Positions 765-21,912 of a DNA stretch of 37,072 nucleotides are shown one piece after another. The stretch spans positions 1 through 37,072 of the forward strand of contig CAIUKF010000007.1 of assembly GCA_903899655.1 (NCBI GenBank). The letters are read 5' to 3'. Position 1 is the first letter of the stretch. Every line of letters begins with the position of its first letter. The stretch comes from an uncultured bacterium. Lineage in GTDB: Bacteria > Patescibacteriota > Saccharimonadia > Saccharimonadales > Saccharimonadaceae. The notes beneath the pieces were generated by a model. That model was given only the letters and a program-made list of their open reading frames with translations. It was not told the DNA's origin and did not search any database. A program made the translations under genes and the position numbers.

Positions 765-800
765 AAATAAAATAGAGTCCAAATGGACTCTATTTTATTT
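765..800. terminator. bidirectional Rho-independent terminator
   Basis: A perfect 16-bp inverted repeat with loop AAAT (stem core GAGTCC/GGACTC). The arms are A/T-rich on the outside, so a U-tract forms on either strand. It ends the gene at 241-750 and directly abuts a tRNA-3'-end-like sequence on the minus strand. Confidence 0.85.
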
Positions 801-866
801 TGCTGGGATGGAGGGATTTGGTTACGTTCCGCGACCCTGCCTCAGTCGGTGACGTTCGTCCGCACT
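801..866 (-). repeat. tRNA-Gln 3'-end-like repeat element, copy A
   Basis: Bases 802-820 match the 3' end (T-loop side plus acceptor) of the intact tRNA-Gln at 12093-12167. The match continues as 'gttacgttccgcgaccctgc' and 'ctcagtcggtgacgttcgtc', which resemble copy B at 1535-1645 and copy D at 12353-12448 respectively. The segment is GC-rich against an AT-rich background. On the minus strand it reads into the terminator at 765-800, as a tRNA gene would. It has no proper anticodon or D arm, so it is not a functional tRNA. The rest of the gap up to 1049 shows nothing recognisable. Confidence 0.6.
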
Positions 867-1534: not shown

Positions 1535-1645
1535 TGGCTGGGATGGAGGGATTTGGTCACGTTCCGCGACCCCGCAAGTCAGTCAAATGAATATAATTCA
1601 TTTGTGACATTGCCTTGCGCAGTGCAGACTTGCACTGCTCACCCC
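1535..1645 (-). repeat. tRNA-Gln-derived hairpin element, copy B (fullest copy)
   Basis: On the minus strand this reads, in order: GGTGAG, then a perfect 8-bp hairpin with a four-base loop (1619-1638), then GCAAGG, a second hairpin of AAATGAAT/ATTCATTT, the motif GACTGAC, a third hairpin GGTCGCG-GAA-CGTGACC, and finally a 21-base sequence identical to the 3' end of tRNA-Gln including its CCA. The element could be a degenerate tRNA, a tRNA-like RNA, or the scar of integration into a tRNA gene. The + side beyond it (1640-1690) ends in 'ggtttcaaatccccatca', which itself looks like a decayed tRNA T-arm facing the other way. Confidence 0.55.
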
Positions 1646-2247: not shown

Positions 2248-3327
2248 ATGAATGAACAATGTACTTCAGGTGTAGGAGATGCATACGAGCCTAACTTCGA
2301 CATAGCGGAGCGCAAGGTTCGTGTCGCAATTTCACCGATCTGTAATCTTAAATGTGAATATTGTGATCATGGTGCAAAGCGATCAAAAGAGCAACTTGGC
2401 GCAATGGAAGACTTTAGAAGCACAGAAATAAGCGATGGTTCAATGGATATTGAAGGATATACGAGGGCTATGCGATCGCTATATAACGCTGGCTACTCTG
2501 GCATAGCTTTTACTGGGGGCGAACCGTTACTTAATCGAAATTGGCCAGAAATTGTTAAGAATGCTAAGGATATTGGATATAAACAGGTTCAATTAACTAC
2601 TAACGCCATGCTGCTTGAATATTATGTAGAAAAAAACGGACCATTGCCAAAAGAGCTAGACTTGCTGACTATTAGCCTTGATACGTTTGATAAGGGTGAG
2701 TTTGCAAGGATCACAAAAGGTAATATTGATAGAGTAATCGCTGGGATTAATGCAGTTCGCGATGCTAATCCAGATTTACATATCAAGGCAAATAAGGTAG
2801 TTATGCGAAATAACTTGCCTGATCTTGAGGAGTACATAAAGTTATGTGAGCAAGGCGGTGCCATAAAACGGCTAACGCTACTTAATTTGATATGCAAGGA
2901 CCCTTTTTCGGAAGATGAAAAAACTTTATTTAACGAACAGTTTGTCTCACCTCAAGAAATAATGGAGATTTTAAATAACTACAATTTTCATATCGATAAA
3001 AAGTATGAGTATATTACTACTACTAGTGCAGGTTTATTGATAAATCTAATGGATACTGATAAGACGTTAAGATCTGAGGAGTGTGAGAATTGCCCTATGT
3101 ATTGCCAGGAAGGTCTTTTTACGGCCAGATTAGCTACTGACGGAACTATTCGTACATGTTCTGATTTTAATAACAGACTTTCATATATTCAAAGTCCTAA
3201 ACTGAGGGGTGAAGAGCTAGACGCTGAAGTCTTCAGGCTACTCGAACCGCAAAGACGTACTACAGTGCAATCTACTTTAGGTAAGTTCTGTACAAAATAC
3301 GGACTAAATCCTAGAAGACTTAATTAG
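2248..3327 (+). CDS. MoaA-like radical SAM enzyme
   Basis: A 359-residue radical SAM protein. CNLKCEYC (CX3CX2C), near residue 32, binds the catalytic [4Fe-4S] cluster and SAM. TGGEPLL near residue 89 is the SAM-binding glycine motif. The C-terminal part has CENCPMYC followed by ARLATDGTIRTC, a second cysteine cluster placed as in GTP 3',8-cyclase MoaA, where 'RLTADGK...C' precedes the last ligand. MoaA acts on GTP, so a nucleotide substrate is plausible but unproven. No molybdopterin genes are in the window, and the C-terminus lacks MoaA's GG tail. AAGGAGA precedes the ATG. Its 3' end overlaps the convergent PurH-like gene by 24 bases. A broken second copy exists at 8245-8340. Confidence 0.85.
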   Translation: MNEQCTSGVGDAYEPNFDIAERKVRVAISPICNLKCEYCDHGAKRSKEQLGAMEDFRSTEISDGSMDIEGYTRAMRSLYNAGYSGIAFTGGEPLLNRNWPEIVKNAKDIGYKQVQLTTNAMLLEYYVEKNGPLPKELDLLTISLDTFDKGEFARITKGNIDRVIAGINAVRDANPDLHIKANKVVMRNNLPDLEEYIKLCEQGGAIKRLTLLNLICKDPFSEDEKTLFNEQFVSPQEIMEILNNYNFHIDKKYEYITTTSAGLLINLMDTDKTLRSEECENCPMYCQEGLFTARLATDGTIRTCSDFNNRLSYIQSPKLRGEELDAEVFRLLEPQRRTTVQSTLGKFCTKYGLNPRRLN

Positions 3328-3894
3328 GTAATTTGTTAGAATCTTGTCGTAATCAGAAGTGTAAGACAGCCCCTTAATCGCCATAATCTTTCTAAAAGAA
3401 ATATCTAACTGGCCAGATCTTAGCTTTTTCGAGATAAGTGTATAGTCTTTTGGATCGGTCACTATTAATACATCTCTGAAATTAATGCAAGCGGCACGTA
3501 TCATTGTTGGCCCTCCTAAATCAACGTTGTGTATATTAAAATCATCTTGAGTTTTTACGGTATCGACGATATTTGTTATATTGCAAACAACTATATCTAT
3601 ACAAGGTATATTCTCTCGTCTCACTTCTTTCAAGTGTATTTTGTTATCTCTATCAAAAACAATTCCACCTGCAAATTTAAAGCTTAGGGTTTGTAGACAA
3701 TCTTCCAATGCCTTTGGATTGCCAGTCATATCGGGTGCAAGTATAAAATCTATTCCAACACTTTCAAGCTTGGCGCCAGTCCCAGCTGTAGCGATAATCA
3801 AATAGCCTGTTTCGATTAAAGCCTTAGCTATAATATTTATGTCTGTCTTGTCGTAGACGCTTATTAGTGCATACTTTATTTTCTGTTTGGTCAT
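3304..3894 (-). CDS. stand-alone PurH N-terminal (IMP cyclohydrolase/MGS-like) domain, probably altered activity
   Basis: 196 residues matching only the first half of bifunctional PurH: KYALISVYDKT at the start, ATAGTGAKLESVGID, TGNPKALEDCLQTL, IDIVVCN and VDLGGPTMIRAACINF. The AICAR transformylase half is absent. Active-site motifs conserved in PurH are changed: KTLHP is QTLSF, NLYPF is NITNI, and the AAKNH lysine region is AACINF. The phosphate-binding GGPTMIRAA is kept. So the fold and perhaps nucleotide binding remain, while IMP synthesis is doubtful. A TATAAT box ends about 11 bases before the ATG, giving a very short leader. It converges on the radical SAM gene; the start of a second copy survives at 8550-8588. 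Confidence 0.8.
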   Translation of the reverse strand: MTKQKIKYALISVYDKTDINIIAKALIETGYLIIATAGTGAKLESVGIDFILAPDMTGNPKALEDCLQTLSFKFAGGIVFDRDNKIHLKEVRRENIPCIDIVVCNITNIVDTVKTQDDFNIHNVDLGGPTMIRAACINFRDVLIVTDPKDYTLISKKLRSGQLDISFRKIMAIKGLSYTSDYDKILTNYLIKSSRI

Positions 3895-3933
3895 ATGGTA
3901 AGTATATTATAATAATTAAATTTTGTAGATCTT

Positions 3934-6252
3934 CTACTCAAGGTTTCTTATACGCATAACCCCACAGACGAGCTTAGCATATTTATCGTGATTGATATAT
4001 TGATTTAATTTATACATGTCTAGTTCTTTGCTTAATGATATATTCTGTGAAGCTTTGTATTTGCGAATTTCTTCAATGGCAAGGATAACGTCTTGAAAGT
4101 CGGCTATATCTAAATCTGTCGAATTTACAACCTGCTCAGGCCACATACTTTTGTGTATACTGTTTTCTTTTGAAAATATATTTTGGTATATATCTTCAGT
4201 AATAAAAGGCATAATTGGTGCGTATAGTTTGAGGATTGTTTCAAAAACTATCTTTATAGTGGCAACTGCTGCACTTGCTGAGGCAACATCATCACTAAAT
4301 AATCGATATTTAACAAACTCTATGTAATTATCAGTAAATTTTGACCAGAATAAAGCATCAACGGCATCACGTGCTTGGCTAAATTTATATTTATCAAAGG
4401 CAGACGTTGCTTTTTTGATTGTATCATTTAATTCGTTTAGTATCCAAATGTCAGCGTACTCATATTTCGCTTCACCAGTTTTGTCGATATGCATTTGTAA
4501 GAATTTGGCAACGTTGTATAGTTTAACTGCTGTTCTGTGCCCAACTTCAACTTCATTAATACTGAATCGTAGGTTCTGACCAAGTCGTGCGCCAGTCGCC
4601 CAATAACGAACGGCGTCGGCGCCGTATTTATCAACTAGTTCTTCAGATGGGATATAGTTACCCAGTCTCTTAGACAGCTTACGACCGTCTTCTGCTAGCC
4701 CATGACCCGAAATCATAACATCATGAAACGGTAAATGTCTATTGTGATAATAACCTCGAACAATCGAATAGAAATCCCAGGTTCGGATAATCTCAAAGGC
4801 ATTCGGACGCAGAGTTGCTGGATATACCTTGCGACGCATTTCATCGTTTTTGACTAATTCTGCTATGATTCTTGGCGAGACCGATGACGTTGCCCAAGTG
4901 TCAAGTACATCCGCTTCTGGCAACAAATCTTCGGGCTTATAGCCACGTGGCGTATAAGTCGTCGGGTCAACTGGCAATTCATCGTCTGATGGCACAACGA
5001 CTTCACCTGTTTTTGCATCATACCAAATCGGAATCGGCACGCCGTAAAAACGTTGGCGCGAAATACACCAATCCCAATGCAAGCCATTAACCCAATTTTC
5101 GTAATCAATTTTTCTGTCTGATGGACGCCATTTTACTTGGTTACCCATATCTAGCCATGCCTGTTTTTCGTCAGTTATTTTGATAAACCATTGGGTGCTA
5201 GAAATATATTCGATCGGTGTATCACAGCGTTCATGAACATTAACAACTTGATCAATAGACTCGACTTTATTAAGTACTCCTACTGTCGCCAAATCTTCAA
5301 CTATTTTTTGACGAGTTTCAGCTATCGTTAAACCAGCATAAACACCAGCCTCATCATTCATCCGCCCATCAGGACCAAGAATATATTTTTTGTCCTGTGC
5401 TGCGATTGGATGCCTGGATTCCCAATCAATAAATTGCGTATCGCCACTACTGCAATAGTAAACCACACCCGTACCAAAGTTAGGGTCAATCTTTTCGTCG
5501 GTAGTAATAATAATTTTCGACTCTGTCAGTGGCATTGTAACCGTCTGACCAACAGCTTTCTGGTATCGCTTATCATCGGGGCTTACCGATATTCCAACGC
5601 ATGACGGATACATCTCGGGGCGAGTTGTTGCAAAAGTCAAAGCCTGACCTTCATCGGTTTTGATATTAATATAAACAAACTTGGTCTGACGTTCCATGTC
5701 TTCCAAATCAGCCTGCGCCAAGGTAGTTTGACATGACGTGCACCACATAACCGGTTTTTCAGCACGATAGGCATGCCCGTTTTTGAACAGTTCAATAAAA
5801 GCTTTTTGCGACACTTTTTGTGAATGTTTATCGATAGTGCTATAGGTGTAATTCCAGTCAACTGATATTCCCAAATCACGCCAAAGCTTGCGATAAGTTT
5901 CAGCACCTTTTTGAGTCTCTTCCAGACAAAGTTTTACGAAATCACCGCGTGTTGTCTTGGACTTATCAATACTATATTTCTTTTCAACAAAACGTTCGGT
6001 CGGCAAACCATTGTCATCAAATCCCATCGGATAATATACATTGAATCCGCGCATCCGTTTGTAACGAACAATAAATTCAGCCTGGGCATATGACATAATA
6101 TGCCCAGCATGCAGGTGGTCAGCCGAAACGTATGGCGGTGGAGTATCGACGACGTAAAGTGGCGCCTGGCTAGTCTCATCAAAAGCAAAGACCTGCTTTT
6201 CGTCCCAGTAGTTTTTCCACTTTGTTTCTATTTCGTGTGCGTCGTACTTCAT
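3934..6252 (-). CDS. valS: valyl-tRNA synthetase
   Basis: 772 residues, class I synthetase. The HIGH motif is HAGH (PPPYVSADHLHAGHIMSYAQ, near residue 47), followed by YPMGFDDNGLPTER, which is characteristic of ValRS of the actinobacterial/archaeal/Rickettsia-like type. The KMSKS motif is KLSKR (GRKLSKRLGN, near residue 530). A large editing-domain region and an anticodon-binding helical domain follow. It is shorter than E. coli-type ValRS and lacks that enzyme's C-terminal coiled coil, as expected for this subtype. AAGGAG lies before the ATG at 6252. Expression is controlled by the T-box leader immediately upstream. Whether this is the only valS in the genome cannot be told from the window. 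Confidence 0.95.
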   Translation of the reverse strand: MKYDAHEIETKWKNYWDEKQVFAFDETSQAPLYVVDTPPPYVSADHLHAGHIMSYAQAEFIVRYKRMRGFNVYYPMGFDDNGLPTERFVEKKYSIDKSKTTRGDFVKLCLEETQKGAETYRKLWRDLGISVDWNYTYSTIDKHSQKVSQKAFIELFKNGHAYRAEKPVMWCTSCQTTLAQADLEDMERQTKFVYINIKTDEGQALTFATTRPEMYPSCVGISVSPDDKRYQKAVGQTVTMPLTESKIIITTDEKIDPNFGTGVVYYCSSGDTQFIDWESRHPIAAQDKKYILGPDGRMNDEAGVYAGLTIAETRQKIVEDLATVGVLNKVESIDQVVNVHERCDTPIEYISSTQWFIKITDEKQAWLDMGNQVKWRPSDRKIDYENWVNGLHWDWCISRQRFYGVPIPIWYDAKTGEVVVPSDDELPVDPTTYTPRGYKPEDLLPEADVLDTWATSSVSPRIIAELVKNDEMRRKVYPATLRPNAFEIIRTWDFYSIVRGYYHNRHLPFHDVMISGHGLAEDGRKLSKRLGNYIPSEELVDKYGADAVRYWATGARLGQNLRFSINEVEVGHRTAVKLYNVAKFLQMHIDKTGEAKYEYADIWILNELNDTIKKATSAFDKYKFSQARDAVDALFWSKFTDNYIEFVKYRLFSDDVASASAAVATIKIVFETILKLYAPIMPFITEDIYQNIFSKENSIHKSMWPEQVVNSTDLDIADFQDVILAIEEIRKYKASQNISLSKELDMYKLNQYINHDKYAKLVCGVMRIRNLE

Positions 6253-6265
6253 TTTTACTCCTTAT

Positions 6266-6501
6266 TAATAAAAGTCCCTCGGCCGCAACACAAAAATGTG
6301 TCTTGGCCGAGGGACGATAATCTATCGTGGTACCACCCTGGCTTTCACTCAAATGTTACCATATGAATGCTCGGGAACTTAATAAGTTCAGGCTATATAT
6401 TTACGATCGCCTATTCGTCAGATTCTAATTCTTATATCCAAATCGGTTATAAGTTTCTTTCTGCCGCTCTCCGGTGACTTCCTTGGCGGACCAAGGCCGA
6501 G
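6266..6501 (-). promoter_or_regulatory. T-box riboswitch (tRNA-Val sensing), transcription-terminating, ultrashort Stem I
   Basis: The minus strand carries the antiterminator AGGGTGGTACCACG (6326-6339), whose UGGUACC bulge ends in U and so suits a tRNA with A73, as in tRNA-Val. AGGG pairs with CCCT, and ACGATA with TATCGT, across the bulge. The competing terminator is a strong hairpin at 6274-6315 (GTCCCTCGGCC / GGCCGAGGGAC) followed by TTTTA. Stem I (6469-6501) is tiny: CUCGG/CCGGAG below and CCUUGG/CCAAGG above. Its 3' internal loop is AAGUCA, giving specifier GUC (Val) at 6476-6478 followed by the usual purine. Uncharged tRNA-Val should therefore permit readthrough into valS. Stem boundaries between 6340 and 6468 are not resolved. 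Confidence 0.92.
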
Positions 6502-6518
6502 TCAATGCGTTTAACTAC

Positions 6519-6547
6519 ATACTACATCATAAAAATATAATTAGCAA
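6519..6547 (-). promoter_or_regulatory. promoter of the T-box/valS transcript
   Basis: On the minus strand, a -35 TTGCTA (6542-6547) and a -10 TAGTAT (6519-6524) are separated by exactly 17 bases. Transcription would begin about 10-15 bases before Stem I of the T-box. Confidence 0.65.
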
Positions 6548-6622
6548 TACAACCTAGTAATTTTTAAAACGTCACAATAGTTATTGATTTGTATTTGATT
6601 TGAGTCTAACTATTTAGTTTAT

Positions 6623-6674
6623 AAAATAGCCTGTCAAAAGACCAACTATTTTCGTGGCTGGTGATTGGGGGGGG
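6623..6674 (-). repeat. decayed terminator plus tRNA-3'-like end, with an eight-G run
   Basis: AAAATAG and CTATTTT (6623-6652) form a hairpin whose interior also pairs (GTC/GAC). It is followed at 6655 by TGGCTGGTGATT and eight G residues. This matches the layout of the other copies (terminator, then TGGCTGGGATGGAGGG on the + strand), with several changes. I read it as a further decayed copy. The remainder of 6553-6807 is AT-rich with nothing else recognised. Confidence 0.4.
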
Positions 6675-6807
6675 TTAGTTACAGACAATTTGCACAGCAA
6701 AATAAAATAGACTGATGCCCACATGCTTGCACTGCCTTAATAACGACATAGTAATTTATAACCATAATTATGCAAGATCTATGTAAGAATTATCTCCTTA
6801 AACGCGA

Positions 6808-6813
6808 TATAAT
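6808..6813 (+). promoter_or_regulatory. -10 box of a leaderless promoter
   Basis: A perfect TATAAT ends six bases before the ATG at 6820, so the transcript should start at or next to the start codon. No clear -35 is present at the right spacing. Confidence 0.65.
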
Positions 6814-6819
6814 AAGTTG

Positions 6820-8208
6820 ATGAAATATCTACTGTCCACCGCTTATATCTACCCCGTATGCCCAATAAGCTTTAACCATGCTAGAATTTACGTTATCGCA
6901 GACGTATACGCACGTTTCGAGCGCCTTCATGGAAATGAGGTATATTTTCCTATTGCGACTCACTACAGCGGCAACACAGCTCATAAAGTCGCCAAAAGTA
7001 TCACGGATCTACTAAACCAGGGCAAACTTATCGAAGGTAGTAACGATCTAATCGTGAGACTGTTCTGCGCTACATACAAACTCCCACTTGCCACCCTTGC
7101 GACGTTCACTGACCCGATCAGGATATTAAATTATTATAATGACGAAACTCTCAAAGAACTTCGTGCGCTAAATATTGATGCAGCCTATAACGACCACTAT
7201 ACAACAAGTGACGCGGACTTCGAGCCATTTGTTCAAGCGGCTATCAATAAATACGAAGAGCATAGAGTATTGAAAATTAATAAAAACGAAGAGCTTTCAC
7301 TAGATTACGAGAATCCACAATGGCGTAAATCTGCCACTGAATTAATTAATCGCACCACTTTCATAGAACCTAGCCAAAGAAATGTGCCCATCGCATCATT
7401 AAAGAACATACGCAGCGACTGGAACCTACTCAGAGACACCGGATATGGTGCAAGATATAATGGTAGAATCGTTGATCCAATGTTCGATAGCGAGTTATTT
7501 TCGATCTTCGATGTCTATATTAAATACCGAGATATATACACTAAAGACCATCAATATTCTTATGTGTTCTTCGAAAATCTACTTGATACTCTTTTGTCAG
7601 ATAATGTGCCACGAAACGAATTAGAGAAAGCGATTATTGACTGGCTTCCTTGTAGACATTTTATCGTTGAAGAACATTTACGAAACTGGGTCGCCAAGAA
7701 AATGCACGCCGAAAGCATTCTTTTGAACCAAAAATACCAAACGAAAAAATATACAATACTAGGCATGGGCCTTCTAGGCGGAAAACGAATGTCTGCATCG
7801 AGAGGTTCAGCAGTCCTTGCTAAAGACTTGCTCGAAAAGCATGGCGGTTTAACTGCACGACTCCTGATGCTACTACAGGGTGGACAGCTTTCAATGAACT
7901 TTAATTATGACCCAAGGATGGAATGGTCAATTATAAAAATGATACGAAGATTTAGAAAGCACAACACGCGATTAAGGACGTATGCGCAAAAGACAACCGA
8001 AATAGCGCCAGACCCAATCTCTTCGATAGAAAGAAAAATTATTGACGCGATTCGGTCTGGTAAACTTCAGAAAGCTCTACTTATTTTAGTTGATCAATGT
8101 CCCCGCACGCTAAACAATATTGGTGCAAATGAGGCGTATTGGTTGACAGATATTTATAATAGGTATATAGGTATGGTATTCGCACCAGAATTAATAATCG
8201 AGGAGTAA
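6820..8208 (+). CDS. class I aminoacyl-tRNA-synthetase-like protein, catalytic core only
   Basis: 462 residues. The N-terminus YPVCPISFNHARIYVIADVY, then ARFERLHGNEVYFPIATHYSG, is plainly the Leu/Ile/Val/Met-type Rossmann core, closest by eye to LeuRS. HIGH is replaced by SFNH (only the last His kept). The second signature is RMSAS in GGKRMSASRGSAVL near residue 325 (KMSKS in the family), followed by a short helical segment. No editing domain, zinc knuckle or recognisable anticodon-binding domain is seen, and the length is about half that of LeuRS. It may adenylate an amino acid for transfer to something other than tRNA, or have another adenylyl-transfer role; that is inference. ATG at 6820 follows a TATAAT box and is probably leaderless. 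Located beside nucleotide-enzyme genes. Confidence 0.75.
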   Translation: MKYLLSTAYIYPVCPISFNHARIYVIADVYARFERLHGNEVYFPIATHYSGNTAHKVAKSITDLLNQGKLIEGSNDLIVRLFCATYKLPLATLATFTDPIRILNYYNDETLKELRALNIDAAYNDHYTTSDADFEPFVQAAINKYEEHRVLKINKNEELSLDYENPQWRKSATELINRTTFIEPSQRNVPIASLKNIRSDWNLLRDTGYGARYNGRIVDPMFDSELFSIFDVYIKYRDIYTKDHQYSYVFFENLLDTLLSDNVPRNELEKAIIDWLPCRHFIVEEHLRNWVAKKMHAESILLNQKYQTKKYTILGMGLLGGKRMSASRGSAVLAKDLLEKHGGLTARLLMLLQGGQLSMNFNYDPRMEWSIIKMIRRFRKHNTRLRTYAQKTTEIAPDPISSIERKIIDAIRSGKLQKALLILVDQCPRTLNNIGANEAYWLTDIYNRYIGMVFAPELIIEE

Positions 8209-8244
8209 TAATAGAAACGAATCAATTTAAGTGTATTCTTTCGT

Positions 8245-8340
8245 AAGTATGGTGAGTTCCCTGATGAGCTAGACCTTCCGACGGTAAGCCTAGACACTTC
8301 CGATGATAAAGAATTCGTAGATATTACTAAAGGGCCATAA
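8245..8340 (+). pseudogene. remnant of a second MoaA-like radical SAM gene
   Basis: The frame reads KYGEFPDELDLPTVSLDT, then SDDKEFVDITKGP-stop. The intact gene has KNGPLPKELDLLTISLDT, then FDKGEFARITKG at about 2632-2721; I count 19 of 30 identical positions. Neither the iron-sulfur N-terminus nor the C-terminal cysteine cluster survives. The divergence shows that this was a paralog, not a recent copy. Confidence 0.8.
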
Positions 8341-8367
8341 CAAAAGTTTTAAGCGGTATTTAATCGG

Positions 8368-8588
8368 TTAAACAAACAAATTATAAAAACTAAATGTCTG
8401 CAAATATTCACGCGGTACATCAGGGTTTTTAGAAATGGAGTCTATATCAATATATGGAATATTATGCTCGTTTAAGTACTGGCCGTTCCAGTAGTTGAAA
8501 TGATCGTATATTCGCGATCTTTTATTGCATTTGTAAGCGGAAGAAGCACTTACTTGTAAAAAACGCTAATTAGTGCATACTTAGTCAT
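8368..8588 (-). pseudogene. remnant of a second PurH-like gene joined to another gene's tail
   Basis: The ATG at 8588 begins MTKYALISVFYK-stop, matching the start of the intact PurH-like protein (MTKQKIKYALISVYDKT). After about 12 codons it shifts frame. A different open frame then runs to the TAA at 8368-8370, reading RSRIYDHFNYWNGQYLNEHN and onward to YLQTFSFYNLFV. That second piece does not resemble PurH and is not identified. A deletion that fused the start of one gene to the end of another explains both parts. Confidence 0.7.
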
Positions 8589-8638
8589 ACGAGTAATCAT
8601 ACCATAGTTTTATATGAGTAAAAGGAGACAATACTAAG

Positions 8639-9238
8639 ATGCATAATGGTCGCGAAGGTGGCATTATTTTACTATCAGGGCTTTCTGGCGTTGGCAAAAG
8701 CACACTTATTCATGACGCGCTCGACGATAATCCGCGCCAACTTCATTACTTAAAAGACTTCACAACACGAGAACGTAGGCCTACGGATAATGATACCGAA
8801 TATGTCTTTGTTAGTGATAACGAATTTGACCGTCAAAAAACACTTGCCGCAGATTGGCAAGAAGGAAGTATCTATGAAAATCGTTATGGACACGATACTG
8901 CAAAATATAAACGTCTCATGCAGCTCGGTAATTATTTAATTGGTTGTTGCTACCCTTCTTTAGAAGATTCAGAATCACTTAACGTATACTACAATCTTAA
9001 TAAGATAACTGTAATACATGTTGACCTTCCAGATGAAATCAGGGCAGAGCGGCTTATCTCACAGCGAGGTGAAGAAGGAAAACGAAGACTTGAGAAAGAT
9101 GCATCTTGGATCATGTCTGAGGGCTACAAGAAGCGTATTGATATACGGTTTAATGCAAATGGGCCAAAGCTTAAAAACAGGCATGAATTTAATGCCATAA
9201 TACAACAAATAATTTCAGCTACTTCTGATAAATCTTGA
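8639..9238 (+). CDS. guanylate-kinase-like P-loop protein
   Basis: 199 residues. Walker A is GLSGVGKST near residue 15. FTTRERRPTDNDTEYVFVSDNEF resembles the GMP-binding region of guanylate kinase (TTRxxRxGExxGxxYxFV). Later parts diverge, and the region that should be a lid carries RGEEGKRRLEKD. It could phosphorylate a nucleoside monophosphate, GMP or a modified derivative; related kinases such as PhnN share the fold. AAAGGAGA lies about 8 bases before the ATG. Its 3' end overlaps the convergent hydrolase gene by 20 bases. I would not name it gmk, since the base-binding residues are not all evident and the genome may hold a standard gmk elsewhere. Confidence 0.75.
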   Translation: MHNGREGGIILLSGLSGVGKSTLIHDALDDNPRQLHYLKDFTTRERRPTDNDTEYVFVSDNEFDRQKTLAADWQEGSIYENRYGHDTAKYKRLMQLGNYLIGCCYPSLEDSESLNVYYNLNKITVIHVDLPDEIRAERLISQRGEEGKRRLEKDASWIMSEGYKKRIDIRFNANGPKLKNRHEFNAIIQQIISATSDKS

Positions 9239-9749
9239 GGTACACGCCGATCTTGTCGACAAGTACACTTAAGTCTGAATACTGATGGTCGCTACCTTTT
9301 ACGGGTATTGTAATCATAAAAGCATTACATAGAATAAGCTTAGATATTTGTTCGTAACTGCCCATCGGATCATTCTCCGCCTGGATGCAAAGTGTTTCTA
9401 TATGATTTTTATTTATAAGCGAATCAATATCTATGTTGTGCTCTTTTGCATACTCCACTGGGACGCCAATGAAAACATTCTTTAATAACCTATCCACATT
9501 CTGCTCTGCGAGCATAGTAATAATGGACCCAGCGGACTTTGCAATAATCTTTGTCATGTCGTGATTTGTTATGAAAAGCCGATGAAGTTTCTTTGCTTCT
9601 TTTTCTATATCTATTTCGCCACCATTCTTCCAGTGATCATATTCGAATAAAGTAGCTTCAACACCAGATGCAATAAGATTATTTAGTAGAGCATTAGCCC
9701 ACGCACGACTATTTAAACTCGCACCACTAAGAATAAGTGTATTTATCAT
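9219..9749 (-). CDS. small alpha/beta-hydrolase-like protein
   Basis: 176 residues. The first strand and loop read INTLILSGASLNS. A nucleophile elbow is visible as AKSAGS near residue 72 (family pattern GxSxG, here A-K-S-A-G). A candidate acid is in QAENDPMGS and the catalytic His in VKGSDHQYSD near residue 155. These give a plausible Ser-Asp-His triad, and the size fits the small serine hydrolases. The start codon overlaps the transketolase stop (ATGA, 9746-9749), so translation is probably coupled and the two are in one operon. Substrate unknown; an ester or acyl group made by the cluster is one possibility. Confidence 0.65.
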   Translation of the reverse strand: MINTLILSGASLNSRAWANALLNNLIASGVEATLFEYDHWKNGGEIDIEKEAKKLHRLFITNHDMTKIIAKSAGSIITMLAEQNVDRLLKNVFIGVPVEYAKEHNIDIDSLINKNHIETLCIQAENDPMGSYEQISKLILCNAFMITIPVKGSDHQYSDLSVLVDKIGVYLKIYQK

Positions 9750-11719
9750 AATTTTTTGCTCCGAGCTAGCTGCTTAAGTGCTTCTTTAACTAGACTCTCA
9801 GCATCAATGCCCATATGACGCTCAAGTTCATCTATCTTGCCTGTCGTACCGTATTCGAATCCAACACCCGAGACTTGGGAGGGCTTTGGTATTTTATCGG
9901 AGGACATGATTGCACGGGCAACGCTGGACTGTAAGATACGAGGATTACCATTATAAACAGTGAGTACTGGGACACCTTCATGTAGTTTGCCTACGAGGCT
10001 TTTTTCAAGTGTGTTTTGATTAATGACATTAATAACACTTGTCGAGATACCGTAATCAAGTTCAAGTATTTGTGCTGCTTCTATACTATTTTTTACTAGT
10101 GCACCGCTAGCGACAAAGGTGAAATCTGGGGTTTTATTAGGCGCATGGGTAACGTATGCATCGATATTATGATCATCGCTTGACTCTCGCTGAAGTGGTT
10201 TCATTGCACGTGCATGCAATCGAGCAAAGTATATACCTCTGTTCTCTGATAATGAATGTGATAATACATTATATAAGTCTTTAGCATCAGCAGGTTCGTA
10301 CATAGTAAGGCCTGGAATTTGCAAAAGGCCGCCAGGCTGTCCAACGGATTGATGAGTACCACCGTTACGTTCTTGGAATAATCCTGCATTTGCACCAATT
10401 ATCAACATACTGCTGTTACCCTGCGCTGCGGCATTCATTTGGTCCATTGCTCGATATACAAAAGAGTCCCAATAGTGAACAAAAATTCGAGCATCTGGAT
10501 TAGTGACTGATATACCATGCGCCATAGCAATGGTATGCTGCTCGCGAATGCCAGTGTTATAAAAGTGTGCATATTTATTCATTTTTAACTCATCCTGTTC
10601 AGTCATTTTCACGAAATCAGGACTGAGCATATAAAACGGTGCTGTATTTGTAATTGCAAGAATTCGCTTGCCGAGATCTATAAAGAATAATTTGCGTGCT
10701 TCATCAAGATTTAGCTCCTCATTGCCTTTATAAGTAAGTTGATAAGCCTCGGTTGAATAGCATGGCGCTACTTGAAGTGGAGCGTTTGGTCCTTTAATTA
10801 AAGTAAGGGCTTTAAGTGGGACGCTTTTCTCTGCGCCATTTGCTTCAAGCTTTGCGTTTAGTCCATTAATTGAAATGTCCAAAGCAGTCTTATCGGTCAC
10901 GCTAACTGTATGGTAGCCACTGTAGTGGTCTTCTGCGCCCGCAATGCCGTAGCCCTTAATGGTGTTTGCAATAATACAAATCGGTCTAGTACTTGCTTTA
11001 GCTATTTTGTACGCATCAAGGATTGATGGGATATCGTGCCCATCTTCAATAGTAAGCACATCCCACCCATAACCCTCCCAAATCTTAGCAAGGTTGGCTG
11101 ATCCGTCAGCCTGAGCGGTCGGTCGTGAAAGTTGCTTACCGTTTTTGTCAATCACACATATAAGATTATCGAGTGGTAGTGTCGTTGCGTGTCGAGCAGC
11201 TTCGCTCACGTTACCTTCTTGCTCTTCCCCATCGCCAAGATACACGATAACACTATTGTCTCTCCCTGATTCTTTTATTTCTACTGCCGCGCCAACACCG
11301 TAAGAAAGTAGCATTCCCAAAGAGCCACTTGGTGTAATATCCACCCCTGGCGCAAGATGCATGTCCTCATGGCCCTGTAGTCTTGATCTATATTGCCTAT
11401 ATGTTGATAGTTCTGATCTGTCTATGTATCCCATCAAAGAAAATATTGGATAACGAGCAGGTCCTTCGTGGCCTCGAATAAGAACCCTGTCGCGCGCTTC
11501 GCTTTTGGAATTGTTACTGTCGAAAGTGAATTCACCACCAAAATATAGCGAAACAAGCAGTTCTACTGATGAAGATGAGCCTCCAATATGTCCAGTCCCT
11601 GCATGACGGATTAGTTCAAAGGCATCTCGTCGAACATAATCAGAGATCTCTAATAAGTCATTAATGCGTGATGAATCGCTCTCTGGACTAACAATAATGT
11701 CGCGTTCTATTTTATTCAT
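9746..11719 (-). CDS. transketolase-family enzyme
   Basis: 657 residues with both transketolase halves in one chain. The thiamine-diphosphate motif is GDGEEQEGNVSEA... ending at DKNGKQLS. Histidines lie in RHAGTGHIGGSSSS, GHEGPARYPIF and GHEDMHLAPGVDITPSGSLG. The catalytic glutamate is in GIREQHTIAMAHG. The enzyme should move a two-carbon ketol unit between sugar phosphates or a related acceptor. It is co-transcribed with the hydrolase and sits beside nucleotide-type enzymes, so a pathway role other than the pentose phosphate cycle is possible. I chose the ATG at 11719; a GTG two codons earlier is an alternative. GAGG lies upstream. Bases 11720-11990 are AT-rich with a TATTATATA promoter-like stretch and an inverted repeat around 11790-11835. 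Confidence 0.88.
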   Translation of the reverse strand: MNKIERDIIVSPESDSSRINDLLEISDYVRRDAFELIRHAGTGHIGGSSSSVELLVSLYFGGEFTFDSNNSKSEARDRVLIRGHEGPARYPIFSLMGYIDRSELSTYRQYRSRLQGHEDMHLAPGVDITPSGSLGMLLSYGVGAAVEIKESGRDNSVIVYLGDGEEQEGNVSEAARHATTLPLDNLICVIDKNGKQLSRPTAQADGSANLAKIWEGYGWDVLTIEDGHDIPSILDAYKIAKASTRPICIIANTIKGYGIAGAEDHYSGYHTVSVTDKTALDISINGLNAKLEANGAEKSVPLKALTLIKGPNAPLQVAPCYSTEAYQLTYKGNEELNLDEARKLFFIDLGKRILAITNTAPFYMLSPDFVKMTEQDELKMNKYAHFYNTGIREQHTIAMAHGISVTNPDARIFVHYWDSFVYRAMDQMNAAAQGNSSMLIIGANAGLFQERNGGTHQSVGQPGGLLQIPGLTMYEPADAKDLYNVLSHSLSENRGIYFARLHARAMKPLQRESSDDHNIDAYVTHAPNKTPDFTFVASGALVKNSIEAAQILELDYGISTSVINVINQNTLEKSLVGKLHEGVPVLTVYNGNPRILQSSVARAIMSSDKIPKPSQVSGVGFEYGTTGKIDELERHMGIDAESLVKEALKQLARSKKL

Positions 11720-12051
11720 AAACACGGGACCTCAGCTCAAATCAATAATAAGTATATAATATCACAAAATATCATCTTGTCACTATCTAAGAAAAATTCG
11801 CTGACAATAAATACTAACGGATTTTTCTTGGCAGGTATAGTAGCCCGACTCAACGAAGCTTGATATTTATCTTAAGATTTCATTTTTGTTTAGCTTGTAG
11901 ATATCTACATTAGGAGATATATCGTTATTCAACGTACTAATTATTTTTTTACTTTTTTGCAAATAGGATATATGCGAAAACTATCACGGATGCAGTCCTC
12001 ACCCCCGATAGCTCCCCGTCATCGAGGATTTAAGTCCCCTAATCTCAATAA

Positions 12052-12092: not shown

Positions 12093-12167
12093 TGGCTGGG
12101 ATGGAGGGATTTGAACCCCCGAATGCTGGTACCAGAAACCAGTGCCTTACCACTTGGCGACATCCCA
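12093..12167 (-). tRNA. tRNA-Gln (anticodon CUG)
   Basis: A complete cloverleaf. The acceptor TGGGATG/CATCCCA includes the U1-A72 pair typical of tRNA-Gln. D arm GCC/GGC with loop AAGTGGTAA; anticodon arm CTGGT-TTCTGGT-ACCAG giving CTG at positions 34-36; variable CATTC; T arm GGGGG-TTCAAAT-CCCTC; discriminator G; encoded CCA. It reads CAG codons. Partial copies of both ends occur elsewhere in the window. Confidence 0.97.
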
Positions 12168-12586: not shown

Positions 12587-15385
12587 ATGAATTCAAAAGA
12601 TACGACACAAATAAACACTCCATTGCATGATATGTACAAAGTTAGCGTCGATGAGGCGTTGAAGGCATATGACTCGACTAAAACTGGTCTTACTAATGAT
12701 GAAGCTGCCAGTAGATTGGCGCAGCATGGTCCAAATAGTCTTAGCAATCTACATAAAAATCCAATAATCTTTAAGTTTTTTGCGCAATTTAAAGATTTGA
12801 TGATTGTGCTGCTGATAGTTTGTGCGGGTATCGCCTATTATTTAGGTGATTTTAGCACTTTTAATATATTATTGGCGATTATTTTAATTAATGCGTTAAT
12901 AGGTTTTACTCAAGAGTACAAAGCCGATAAAGTCATGGATTCGTTAAAGTCATTGATGGTTCCAGAATCTAAAGTGTATCGTGATGGGCAGATGTCGACA
13001 ATCGAAGCCAGTCAATTAGTGCCTGGTGATATTATTTATGTCGAAGAGGGCGATTCCGTCCCTGCTGATGGTCGTATTTTGCAAGAAAACGAGGTTTCGA
13101 CTAATGACTTTTCGTTGACTGGTGAATCTAACCCATGCCGCAAATTTACTCACGTTATTAACGAAGATGTTGGTGTTGGCGATCGACGGAATTTGATTTT
13201 TATGGGTACGACTGTTGCAACTGGCAATGCAATCTGTCTAGTTGTTGCGACTGGAATGAATACCGAATTGGGACGGATCGCGTCGTTAAGTCAATCGACA
13301 AAATTCAGCGCATCGACTTTACAAAAAGAGATGAATAATTTGGCTGTGCGCATTACTATTGCAACATTGATATTGGTCGTACTGCTAGTCTTGGTATCAC
13401 TTGGTGTAAATCTAAGCATTAAAGAAGCATTTTTGTTTGCCATTAGTATTGCCAGTGCTATGATTCCGCAAGGCTTGCCGGCCGAGGTTAACGTTTCGTT
13501 GTCGCAAGCTGCTGGTATGTTGGCGCGTGAACGAGTGTTGGTTAAAAAGTTAAGCGCTGTCGAGACGTTAGGCGCGACATCGGTTATTTTAACTGACAAA
13601 ACCGGCACATTAACCAAAAATGAAATGACTGTCGAACGTATCGTGTTAATCGATAATAATTATCATATATCGGGCAGTGGTTATCAGCCAACTGGTGAAA
13701 TTTATGACAAAGATGGTCGTACTTTGGTTGGTGCCGAATTAGCCAGATTACAAGAATTTATTACGATTGGTTATTATGCCAGTGATGCAAAAATTTCAAA
13801 GCCCGATGCTAATCATTTAACATGGTATTGTATTGGCGACCCAACTGAGGGCGCACTAATAACGTTGGCTGAAAAATCAGGTTTGGATGTCAATAAACTT
13901 GAGGCCGACTCGCCTGAATTAAAAGAATTTCCATTTGACTCAGTTCGTAAGTGCATGAGCTCGGTTCGCAATTATAACGACAAATTAACAGTATTTGCCA
14001 AAGGTGCGCCTGAATCAATTGTGTCTAGATGCACTAAAATACAACTTTCCAGTGGCGAAATCCGCGTTATAACTGATGCCGATAGGCAGATGATAAATTC
14101 ACAAAATGATATTCTGGCTGGTAAAGCTATGCGTAATTTGGCGTATGGTTATAAGACCATTGATCAGTCGGTTGATTATACTCAACATAACCCAGATATT
14201 GTTGAAAATGATTTGATTTACGCTGGTATGGTATCGATGATTGACCCTGTACGTGAGGATGTTGCCGACGCAATGCAGGCCGCTCGAAAGGCAAACATTC
14301 GGGTTTCGATAGTAACTGGTGATTATGCACCAACAGCTCGAGCCATTGCTGTGCGGGCTAAACTGGCCGATAACCCTGATGATATTGAGATTGTAGAAGG
14401 TAAAGATTTACCGTCAATGCCAGACCAAAAGATACTTGATTTAGTGATGCGTGGCAGTATTATTTTCTCGCGTGTTTCGCCCGAAGATAAATTACGCATC
14501 GTTAGTTTAGTTAAATCACACAATCACGTCGTGGCTGTTACGGGTGATGGTATCAATGACGCTCCTGCCCTAAAAAACGCCGATATAGGTGTTGCTATGG
14601 GAAAAACCGGTACGGATGTAGCTAAACAATCAGCCGAGATAATATTACTGGACGACAGCTTCCATACCTTAATTGGTGCAATTTGGCGCGGTCGAACGGT
14701 TTATCAAAATATTAAAAAAGCTACTATGTCATGTTTAACTTCAAATTATGGCGAATTAATGACTGTTTTGATTGGTTTGGTGGCGTTAAGCATTGCCGGT
14801 ATTCCGCCTGCAATCACGCCGGTTTTGGTGTTGTCGATTGATTTAATTGCCGAGATGTTTCCGATTGCGGCACTGGGTTGGGATCGTCCCGACAAAGAAT
14901 TGATGGATGACCAACCGCGTAACTTGCGTGACCACATATTTAATATTCCCGCTTTTTGGGATTTGTTGTTTACTGGTACATTAATGGGCGGACTAGCCTA
15001 TGGTAACTTTTTGTTGTTTGCATCCAGAAATAGTATTGCTGCTAGCGATTTGCAAAATACTGATATGTATTTCAGTGCGGTAACGTTGACTTATGTCACG
15101 ATTGTATTTTGTCAGTTAGTTAACATTTTAGTTCGTAGGTCGCGTGATTTTACAATTTCGCGCTATATGTTTACAAACAAACAATTATGGATGGCTATGG
15201 CACTATCCGTTAGTTGTGTATTGGCGATTGTATACTTACCAATACTACATACTATATTTGGATCGGGCGTATTGTTAATGTCTGATTGGATGTATGTATT
15301 TATTGCCGCTGGAATTTTCTTTGTCGTTAAAGAATCGATGAAAATATTTAGTCTTGTTAAAAATCGCCATGTACAAGCAAAGTAA
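12587..15385 (+). CDS. P-type cation-transporting ATPase, type II (Ca2+-ATPase-like)
   Basis: 932 residues. N-terminal cation ATPase domain (TNDEAASRLAQHGPNSL). Actuator motif SLTGES. Phosphorylation site DKTGTLTKNEM near residue 337, with the preceding VETLGATSVILT. The ATP-binding motif is near KGAPES. The hinge VTGDGINDAPALKNADIGVAMG is near residue 650. About ten membrane helices, including the M4 segment with AMIPQGLPAEVN. The overall design matches SERCA/PMA-type pumps that export Ca2+ or other cations. The proline-containing M4 site (IPQGLP in place of VPEGLP) means the transported ion is not certain. Predicted leaderless start; the stop overlaps the folP start. Confidence 0.9.
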   Translation: MNSKDTTQINTPLHDMYKVSVDEALKAYDSTKTGLTNDEAASRLAQHGPNSLSNLHKNPIIFKFFAQFKDLMIVLLIVCAGIAYYLGDFSTFNILLAIILINALIGFTQEYKADKVMDSLKSLMVPESKVYRDGQMSTIEASQLVPGDIIYVEEGDSVPADGRILQENEVSTNDFSLTGESNPCRKFTHVINEDVGVGDRRNLIFMGTTVATGNAICLVVATGMNTELGRIASLSQSTKFSASTLQKEMNNLAVRITIATLILVVLLVLVSLGVNLSIKEAFLFAISIASAMIPQGLPAEVNVSLSQAAGMLARERVLVKKLSAVETLGATSVILTDKTGTLTKNEMTVERIVLIDNNYHISGSGYQPTGEIYDKDGRTLVGAELARLQEFITIGYYASDAKISKPDANHLTWYCIGDPTEGALITLAEKSGLDVNKLEADSPELKEFPFDSVRKCMSSVRNYNDKLTVFAKGAPESIVSRCTKIQLSSGEIRVITDADRQMINSQNDILAGKAMRNLAYGYKTIDQSVDYTQHNPDIVENDLIYAGMVSMIDPVREDVADAMQAARKANIRVSIVTGDYAPTARAIAVRAKLADNPDDIEIVEGKDLPSMPDQKILDLVMRGSIIFSRVSPEDKLRIVSLVKSHNHVVAVTGDGINDAPALKNADIGVAMGKTGTDVAKQSAEIILLDDSFHTLIGAIWRGRTVYQNIKKATMSCLTSNYGELMTVLIGLVALSIAGIPPAITPVLVLSIDLIAEMFPIAALGWDRPDKELMDDQPRNLRDHIFNIPAFWDLLFTGTLMGGLAYGNFLLFASRNSIAASDLQNTDMYFSAVTLTYVTIVFCQLVNILVRRSRDFTISRYMFTNKQLWMAMALSVSCVLAIVYLPILHTIFGSGVLLMSDWMYVFIAAGIFFVVKESMKIFSLVKNRHVQAK

Positions 15386-20609: not shown

Positions 20610-21746
20610 TTAATAACTAGAATAACCTGCGGTGCCGTAATTAATCTGATTATATATTCGTTCGTAAATTTTGTTAGCTTCTTCGTTGGTAATCGTTCGT
20701 TCGAGATGGCGAAGTGTGATACGAACCAAGATGTTCTTTTGGTCCGGTTTGATGCCCAATCTCTGTTTGATTTTCTCAGGTAAATTATCGTACTTTTCTT
20801 CATTTAGTATCTCTACGTTCTCCAATGCTTCGACGTCACCTTCAAGGGCCTGCCTAATATCGGCGCTTACGTCTTCTTCGACGTAATTATTTGGTATACT
20901 ATAGGACATATCACGTTTAATGGCGGGCTGATTGGAAACTTCGTGATAGGTCTCGGTGTTCGTCATCTGTTTAGCAATTTCAGGGTTCTTTGATCGAAGG
21001 TAGCGGATATCTGGAATGTCCTTTATTGTCATAACTAGACGGTCTAGTCCCATACCTAGTGCCCAGCCAGAATATATTTTTGGATCAAGTCCTGAGTTCG
21101 ACAATATTTCATCTTTAATTAGGCCACATTCCAATATTTCAATATCTCGGTCGTCTTTTACGGCATTTACCTCTATTCCTTGGTTAGTATATGGGTGTGG
21201 CGAATCGATAATTCGTAATTTCCAATCTGGTGCAGCGGTTTTTGCAACGCCATTTACTACTGTTAGTAAATCATCTTTGGTGATGACTTTGCGTTTTGAA
21301 GTTTTGACAACTCGCCACATCTCAAGTTGATGAACTTCGCTAACATGTTTCTTATCTGATACATCACGCCTATAAGATAACCCTGGTAGCAATATTACGA
21401 CGTCTTGCCAGTCATTTCGTTTTGATAATTCACGTAATATTCCAGGCAAATGTGCGCTGGTGTGGGTTCTTAGTATATGGGACTCGTCAACATAGTGAGT
21501 GTATGTTGAAGATCGGCCGATGTTGTCGGCTGGAAATAACAGATTGTCGTAATTATCGGCGATACTTACGATTGGGTTTTTGCGATATACTCTAACGTCA
21601 CTTTGTGGGTGCGTTGAACGCATATATTTCTCGATGTTTTCATAAACTATTTTGATAGCGTGCGGAGATTTTGATTGAGTTAGGTCCGAGACACTCAAAT
21701 ATCTATCGAGCTCTAATTTACTGATTGGTTTGACGTACATTTTCAT
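20610..21746 (-). CDS. single-chain phenylalanyl-tRNA-synthetase-like protein (mitochondrial-type architecture)
   Basis: 378 residues from ATG 21746 (GAGG upstream). Class II motif 2 is GLSYRRDVSDKKHVSEVHQLE. The substrate pocket region reads GIEVNAVKDDRDIEILECGL. Motif 3 is SGWALGMGLDRLVMTIKDIPDIRYL. After this PheS-like core comes a C-terminal FDX-ACB anticodon-binding domain: IKRDMSYSIPNNYVEEDV ... ITLRHLERTITNEEANKIYERI. Normal bacterial PheRS is an (alpha-beta)2 tetramer with FDX-ACB on PheT; this fused, PheT-free design is that of mitochondrial FARS2. An in-frame extension back to a TTG at 21857 exists but runs through the leader ORF, so I reject it. No PheT is in the window. Confidence 0.85.
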   Translation of the reverse strand: MKMYVKPISKLELDRYLSVSDLTQSKSPHAIKIVYENIEKYMRSTHPQSDVRVYRKNPIVSIADNYDNLLFPADNIGRSSTYTHYVDESHILRTHTSAHLPGILRELSKRNDWQDVVILLPGLSYRRDVSDKKHVSEVHQLEMWRVVKTSKRKVITKDDLLTVVNGVAKTAAPDWKLRIIDSPHPYTNQGIEVNAVKDDRDIEILECGLIKDEILSNSGLDPKIYSGWALGMGLDRLVMTIKDIPDIRYLRSKNPEIAKQMTNTETYHEVSNQPAIKRDMSYSIPNNYVEEDVSADIRQALEGDVEALENVEILNEEKYDNLPEKIKQRLGIKPDQKNILVRITLRHLERTITNEEANKIYERIYNQINYGTAGYSSY

Positions 21747-21816
21747 AGGTTTTACCTCTTTATCTAGGTTTTGTAGTGTTTGGTTGGCTAGTAATGGTAT
21801 AAAATATAAGTTGCTG

Positions 21817-21912
21817 CTAGGCAGCAAAAATACCAAAGAAAAAAGAGTTAGCCGCAATATTGACTCGATGTATGAGAATTGGATGGTTAGAGTTAATGTT
21901 GGCGGCTTTCAT
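21817..21912 (-). CDS. Phe-rich leader peptide upstream of the PheRS-like gene
   Basis: 31 codons: MKAANINSNHPILIHRVNIA, then ANSFFFGIFAA-stop. Four of the last eight residues are Phe. A promoter ends seven bases before its ATG, so it should be translated from the very 5' end of the message. The stop lies in a small hairpin (TTGCTGC-CTA-GCAGCAA) about 70 bases before the synthetase ATG. This resembles the E. coli pheM leader logic, where Phe-tRNA shortage stalls the ribosome. The Phe codons come from a T-rich run that could also be a terminator U-tract, so the role is inferred. Confidence 0.5.
   Translation of the reverse strand: MKAANINSNHPILIHRVNIAANSFFFGIFAA
21839..21907 (-). terminator. 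hairpin and U-tract, attenuator or terminator
   Basis: On the minus strand AGCCGC-C-AACATT (from 21907) pairs with AATATTGCGGCT (ending 21850), with one bulge and one mismatch and a long loop. A TCTTTTTTC run follows. It lies wholly inside the leader ORF, so a translating ribosome would melt it. It may also end glycosyltransferase transcripts coming from 21943. Confidence 0.5.

Follow-up and report, generated by a model that had tools for sequence, protein, structure and literature searches.

Bacteria of the candidate phyla radiation (CPR) are regarded as reduced organisms that live as partners of other cells and have little secondary metabolism. Class I aminoacyl-tRNA synthetases (aaRS) have elsewhere been turned into small-molecule amino acid ligases, as in MshC, the cysteine ligase of mycothiol synthesis; MshC derives from the cysteinyl-tRNA synthetase (CysRS), whereas the protein described here derives from the leucyl-tRNA synthetase (LeuRS). 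A second aaRS copy inside a biosynthetic cluster marks self-resistance, as for albomycin, mupirocin, borrelidin and agrocin 84 (PMC9032320), and in albomycin synthesis the second seryl-tRNA synthetase (SerRS2/AbmK) in addition provides AbmF, an enzyme of the aaRS type, with seryl-adenylate (PMC9032320). Here we describe a gene cluster in a stretch of 37,072 nt (the window) from a bacterium of the family Saccharimonadaceae; the genome comprises 925 kb in 18 contigs, of which the window is number 7, and is judged to be of the CPR type from its size and from the small genomes of its relatives. The cluster is a horizontally acquired island at a tRNA-Gln(CTG) gene and combines a LeuRS-like catalytic core (the aaRS-like protein) with five further enzymes and a second valyl-tRNA synthetase (ValRS2) that is preceded by a T-box leader. 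We are evenly poised on whether it is a biosynthetic cluster for a small molecule of the amino acid/nucleotide type that hits ValRS, with the T-box-induced ValRS2 as self-protection.

Like the island, the albomycin abm cluster (AbmF, AbmK, AbmJ, AbmG; PMC9032320) encodes a divergent second aaRS alongside a condensing enzyme of the aaRS type, together with a radical SAM enzyme and a homologue of nucleoside kinases. Albomycin targets SerRS, a class II synthetase, whereas the window holds a class I, LeuRS-derived core together with a ValRS; in addition, no siderophore genes were seen in the window, the transketolase and PurH-like genes are new to such a cluster, and regulation is by a T-box. Agrocin 84 with AgnB2 is a further parallel, as this aaRS inhibitor is of the nucleotide type and its cluster carries an immune synthetase of class Ia (PMC5059758, PMC9032320); in this likeness, which is drawn from the literature, the target would be ValRS and the island lies in a CPR genome. 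The pathway of the nucleoside antibiotic formycin A contains ForH (PDB 6nko), like the window gene a stand-alone homologue of the PurH N-domain, to which the window protein is related at 87 bits, i.e. less than to bifunctional PurH; the formycin producer has two sets of Pur enzymes (PMC8724604). As far as our searches show, the gene set of the island matches no known cluster family and would work like the albomycin/agrocin type. Neither a ValRS self-resistance or a T-box-controlled resistant aaRS in biosynthetic clusters nor a natural ValRS inhibitor turned up in the literature searched.

The genes at 2248-11725 are arranged in the order radical SAM (+), PurH-like (-), valS (-), LeuRS-like core (+), guanylate-kinase (Gmk)-like (+), hydrolase (-), and transketolase (-) (Table 1). 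The 3' ends of the radical SAM and PurH-like genes converge with a 24-bp overlap, as do those of the Gmk-like and hydrolase genes with 20 bp, and the hydrolase and transketolase genes overlap by 4 bp on the same strand; the PurH-like gene lies 39 bp downstream of valS on the same strand and may be co-transcribed with it. The original prediction, made from the letters of the sequence, had named these genes, and its coordinates and family names hold, with all genes present where it had placed them; the tRNA repeats, a decayed second radical SAM copy, and the housekeeping copies of ValRS and transketolase outside the window had escaped it.

Table 1. Features of the island and its borders in the window
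Feature	Position	Strand	Match or remark
Second tRNA-Gln 3' end repeat	800-820	-	1 mismatch; outer border or tandem insertion
Direct repeat of tRNA-Gln(CTG) 3' end, likely att site, left island border	1535-1555	-	20/20 nt
Radical SAM enzyme, MoaA-like core	2248-3327	+	PF04055, 72.4 bits (cut-off 29.5)
Stand-alone PurH N-domain (IMPCH-like)	3304-3894	-	TIGR00355, residues 1-189 of 511
Second valyl-tRNA synthetase, archaeal-type (valS, ValRS2)	3934-6252	-	PRK13208, 905 bits (cut-off 738)
Terminator hairpin of T-box leader	6274-6315	-	GUCCCUCGGCC...GGCCGAGGGAC-UUUU
T-box leader	6307-6514	-	RF00230, 48.9 bits, below gathering score 93; E 5.5e-10 on 321 nt
LeuRS-like catalytic core without CP1 editing domain (aaRS-like)	6817-8208	+	leuS_arch, 102 bits (cut-off 648); 463 aa
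Decayed second radical SAM copy	8227-8367	+	47-56% identity to intact copy; two TAA stops
Divergent guanylate-kinase-like nucleotide kinase	8639-9238	+	PF00625, 40.5 bits
Small alpha/beta hydrolase	9219-9749	-	PF20408, E 3e-4, below cut-off
Full-length transketolase, rare subfamily	9746-11725	-	ATG start gives 11719
tRNA-Gln(CTG), integration target	12093-12167	-	

Exact repeats of the 3' end of tRNA-Gln(CTG) flank the cluster (at 1535 and 12093; 21-bp match of 1535-1555 to 12093-12113), both in the same orientation and with the cluster in between, and the cluster is therefore an island. The comparison genome G036, of the same genus as the window genome, is without a counterpart of the radical SAM, aaRS-like, Gmk-like or hydrolase gene, and its tRNA-Gln(CTG) shows no repeat of the 3' end. 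Copies of a tRNA's own 3'-terminal 20 nt at 0.2-11 kb downstream were found for 7 of the 40 tRNAs in the window genome and for 1 of 39 in G036. Loci with such copies in the window genome are L103 (13684-18047), L116, L123, L127, L130 and L133, besides the window itself (800, 1535, 12093). The copy of tRNA-Gln(TTG) spans 4.3 kb with one transposase-like and one pilin-like ORF. Short repetitive elements recur beside many tRNAs of this genome.

The ValRS of the island is of the archaeal type with intact active-site motifs (HAGH, KLSKR), and a bacterial-type housekeeping enzyme (ValRS1; G000:C9:10782-13331; PRK05729, 886 bits) was found in 887 kb of stretches of the genome outside the window. ValRS1 is 70-74% and ValRS2 27-32% identical to the ValRS of G036, and valS of the window is thus a second, horizontally acquired, T-box-controlled ValRS; the cluster hence carries a divergent second copy of its putative target, with the housekeeping copy elsewhere. 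The original prediction had left open whether valS is self-protection or a coincidental neighbour, and its foreign, T-box-controlled nature now makes self-protection the better of these options.

The leader of valS comprises a short stem I, the specifier GUC (Val) in the context GGAA-GUC-A, and the T-box motif AGGGUGGUACCACG; a strong terminator with a U-run overlaps the antiterminator, and the folding of the leader lies 4.8 standard deviations below that of shuffled sequences. The genome encodes a tRNA-Val(GAC) with discriminator A and the 3' end ACCA, which fits the UGGU of the T-box. A poison of ValRS would raise uncharged tRNA-Val and so switch ValRS2 on, which makes a valine T-box a fitting trigger.

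Accessory ValRS proteins of the archaeal type (alt_ValS) are also encoded on plasmids, beside radical SAM, hydrolase or aminotransferase genes, but their identity to ValRS2 is only 33-35%. On a Streptomyces plasmid (L151 4946-12452), alt_ValS lies near radical SAM, arginine deiminase, hydrolase and methyltransferase genes, and on a Variovorax plasmid (L150 6003-14177) among aminotransferase and amidohydrolase genes; both loci look like small biosynthetic clusters, possibly for further ValRS-directed products. The alt_ValS of a Burkholderia glumae plasmid has no evident pathway alongside. This last case and the plasmid-borne, accessory nature of alt_ValS fit the idea that ValRS2, which with its own T-box leader could be a self-contained resistance gene, is resistance cargo against an inhibitor from the host bacterium or from neighbours, with the remaining genes making or degrading something unrelated. 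We consider this decidedly unlikely, in view of the PurH-like gene 39 bp after ValRS2 on the same strand, the aaRS-like gene that diverges from ValRS2, and the occurrence of accessory ValRS genes among biosynthesis-like genes on two plasmids.

For the presumed activation of an amino acid, the island encodes the aaRS-like protein, which shares with archaeal LeuRS (P. horikoshii, PDB 1wkb) the catalytic core in two blocks (profile positions 3-155 to 34-180, and 133-411 to 440-738). In contrast to archaeal LeuRS, it is without CP1 (about 180-440 in 1wkb), its C-terminal tRNA-binding part is shortened and falls short of a full tRNA-binding domain, and the HIGH and KMSKS motifs are altered, to SFNH and RMSAS in the window. 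Across the homologues, the position of HVGH reads S(I/F)(D/N)H, or NASH in genome G127, and that of KMSKS reads RMS(A/S)S; the second His of HIGH is kept and the first is replaced by S or N. The structure model of the protein (pLDDT 55) was too weak for a fold search, and the comparison therefore relies on the alignment of its sequence with 1wkb. In a scan of genome contigs, the only match of the protein was an archaeal tRNA synthetase; a bacterial LeuRS and an IleRS are present in the genome outside the window. We infer that the protein, a core that descends from class Ia synthetases, activates an amino acid.

The search for relatives of the aaRS-like protein covered 380 genomes of the phylum, 275 from the family to which the window belongs, 319 of one class, and smaller sets, with overlap between the samples. 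Clear homologues are rare: they are encoded in four of the 380 genomes (the window genome, G441, G127 and G158), and among the 275 genomes of the family in the window genome only. Four different pairs of window genes are neighbours across four other genomes. In G441, the aaRS-like gene is followed by a radical SAM homologue with a 4-bp overlap and, further downstream, by genes for a methyltransferase, a radical SAM/SPASM protein, a glycosyltransferase, a small protein without Pfam match, and CysRS. In G127, aaRS-like, methyltransferase and transketolase genes lie on one strand, the latter 42% identical to that of the window over 654 aa. In G158, a stand-alone PurH-like gene (38% identity) begins 33 bp after the aaRS-like gene and is followed by an HD-domain gene, with methyltransferase, ThiF-like, kinase, aminotransferase, GHMP-kinase and Ham1-like genes in the vicinity. 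In G211, a PF20408 hydrolase gene is located directly downstream of a transketolase gene, as in the window (BLAST E 7e-4 for the hydrolase pair). The decayed radical SAM copy of the window sits directly 3' of the aaRS-like gene, and the order found in G441 (aaRS-like, then radical SAM) is therefore probably ancestral in the window, too.

The CysRS gene of G441 (L023 7787-9196) lies directly behind the aaRS-like/radical SAM cluster and, by analogy with ValRS2, may be a duplicate. An origin from phages, plasmids or viral contigs was considered for the aaRS-like gene and rejected, as the protein is without relatives in any of these; relatives of the radical SAM protein were likewise absent from viral contigs, and the matches that the radical SAM, PurH-like and transketolase proteins have in phages and plasmids are all either ordinary or distant.

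The mixed orientation of the genes, the convergence of two of the three gene overlaps, and the decay at 8227-8367 would be in line with unrelated genes that accumulated by chance in an island anchored at a tRNA gene. The recurrence of four window pairs as neighbours in four other genomes makes this hardly credible, and it is already disfavoured: the joint chance is far below 1e-6, a rough estimate that uses about 2 in 900 per immediate neighbour. The recurrence of these pairs in other genomes of the phylum likewise lends substance to the original prediction of a clustered, hitherto undescribed pathway in which these families are combined. The contrary case, that the genes are neighbours nowhere else and are each the only housekeeping copy, is countered by these pairs and by separate copies of ValRS, LeuRS and transketolase; the PurH-like, Gmk-like and radical SAM genes are single in this genome, but G036 is without this radical SAM and Gmk-like gene and, for PurH, has a canonical-length form only.

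The homology of the PurH-like protein spans the whole domain (158 bits to structure 4ehi over residues 23-211). For the catalytic residues of IMP cyclohydrolase, which we take to be K66, Y104, D125 and K137 (human ATIC numbering), the window protein has Q, T, D and I, and the G158 homologue has K, F, D and Q, i.e. Y104 and K137 are lost there; bifunctional PurH sequences and the PurH2 of phage P-SSM2 retain the Tyr (Y104) and the last Lys (K137) (the E. coli row was left out of this comparison). With these residues lost, an activity of the IMP-cyclohydrolase type is not supported. A PurH tree did not resolve the window and G158 copies. There is no other copy of the gene and no second PF01808 match in the window genome; the only PurH of G036 is of canonical length and 28% identical to the window protein. 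The homology to ForH makes a remodelled purine nucleotide as product no more than plausible.

The radical SAM protein contains the CxxxCxxC motif of the superfamily (C32-C36-C39) and a C-terminal auxiliary motif of four Cys (C279-x2-C282-x3-C286-x17-C304), and the homologue in G441 (35% identity) has kept every motif Cys; no other copy of the intact gene is present in the genome. With the MoaA equivalog TIGR02666, the protein scores 106.9 bits and remains under the cut-off of 284 bits, and it ends in PRRLN, without the GG of MoaA. In MoaA, an auxiliary cluster with three Cys leaves an iron open for GTP, and the four conserved C-terminal Cys of the window protein mean that such an open GTP-binding cluster is not expected. 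GTP as the substrate, which the original prediction had taken from MoaA, thus finds no support in the missed cut-off, the auxiliary motif or the terminus.

The same protein matches the PADLOC pVip model (E 4e-20) and the NCBIfam viperin model (E 3e-19), and a nucleotide kinase gene is close by in an island setting, as if viperin-like chemistry yielded chain-terminating nucleotides for antiviral defence. This is quite improbable: MoaA models score 107 bits and viperin 70 bits, viperins are not known to have the C-terminal four-Cys domain, no other part of the island was convincingly recognised by PADLOC, and an antiviral function would leave the aaRS-like, transketolase and PurH-like proteins without a role.

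The Gmk-like protein has kept the P-loop and a TTR motif and misses the cut-off of the guanylate kinase equivalog TIGR03263 (48.4 bits; cut-off 160); no other or canonical Gmk was found in the window genome or in G036. The transketolase comprises the ThDP-binding, pyrimidine and C-terminal domains (PF00456, PF02779, PF02780), all above cut-off. Members of its subfamily (>500 bits) were found in 3 of 351 genomes (the window genome, G127 and G211) and are lacking in G036, and a separate, split transketolase is encoded in the window genome at G000:C4:5821-7685.

Outside the island, the window contig encodes a PheRS-alpha-like protein (20610-21857, -; PF01409 and PF03147, 415 aa) that is matched only weakly (27%) in the rest of the genome and in G036 and could be a PheRS paralogue. 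It also encodes two P-type cation ATPases (12587-15385 and 26106-28430), and a counterpart of neither was found in G036.

If the island is a biosynthetic cluster with built-in resistance, the editing-less LeuRS core would convert an aliphatic amino acid to its adenylate and couple it to a small acceptor, a nucleotide- or sugar-like compound that may be built or modified by the radical SAM, PurH-like, Gmk-like and transketolase enzymes. The product would mimic valyl-adenylate or otherwise inhibit ValRS; the housekeeping ValRS would be inhibited and tRNA-Val would lose its charge. Uncharged tRNA-Val(GAC) would then pair with the T-box leader (specifier GUC; UGGU with ACCA) and cause antitermination, upon which the resistant ValRS2 would be made, perhaps together with the product of the PurH-like gene. 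ValRS2 might also feed the pathway, as AbmK reportedly does in albomycin synthesis.

Several observations weigh against such a cluster. The altered HIGH and KMSKS motifs of the LeuRS-like core leave adenylation to be presumed from descent, and the product, its target and the resistance are read from analogy to known systems. In G158, the N-terminal 138 residues of the aaRS-like protein (L035 9506-10486), i.e. the part with HIGH, are missing with the PurH-like gene behind it intact, which means that the gene has decayed or that its C-terminal part serves another purpose. ValRS2 scores 679 bits with the alt_ValS model NF000540 and is under its cut-off of 900. The complete set of parts is confined to the window genome, as is the second ValRS; near the G127 and G158 clusters, the LeuRS-like gene was the only aaRS gene seen, and no second CysRS was found in the part of G441 searched (20 kb in addition to 293 kb of contig starts). 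Finally, no exporter was recognised among the island's genes and no integrase among the listed ORFs of 80 aa or more between 1535 and 12093; the integrase may have been lost or may act in trans.

The nucleotide-like enzymes, the lack of a visible toxin-export gene and the lack of a ValRS beside the shared genes at the other four loci would also agree with a conserved pathway whose product is a modified nucleotide or a cofactor that serves salvage or the modification of RNA, and in which ValRS2 is a passenger or a spare synthetase for valine stress. We regard this as rather unlikely: the patchy distribution does not suit a core cofactor, and a foreign ValRS with a tRNA-Val T-box in the cluster, next to an intact housekeeping ValRS, is the usual sign of target-based self-resistance (PMC9032320).

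The biosynthetic reading can be put more specifically, and in this form we offer it as a tentative proposal that we hold with less than even confidence: a CPR bacterium makes an amino acid-nucleotide inhibitor of ValRS by means of editing-less LeuRS-core ligases that form a new family, and a T-box senses the cell's own poisoning and switches on a resistant ValRS. If true, this rare mobile gene set with its duplicated, tRNA-sensing drug target would represent a chemical weapon or a signal for a CPR bacterium. It would also point to a natural ValRS inhibitor, and the LeuRS core would join the synthetases that have been turned into small-molecule ligases.

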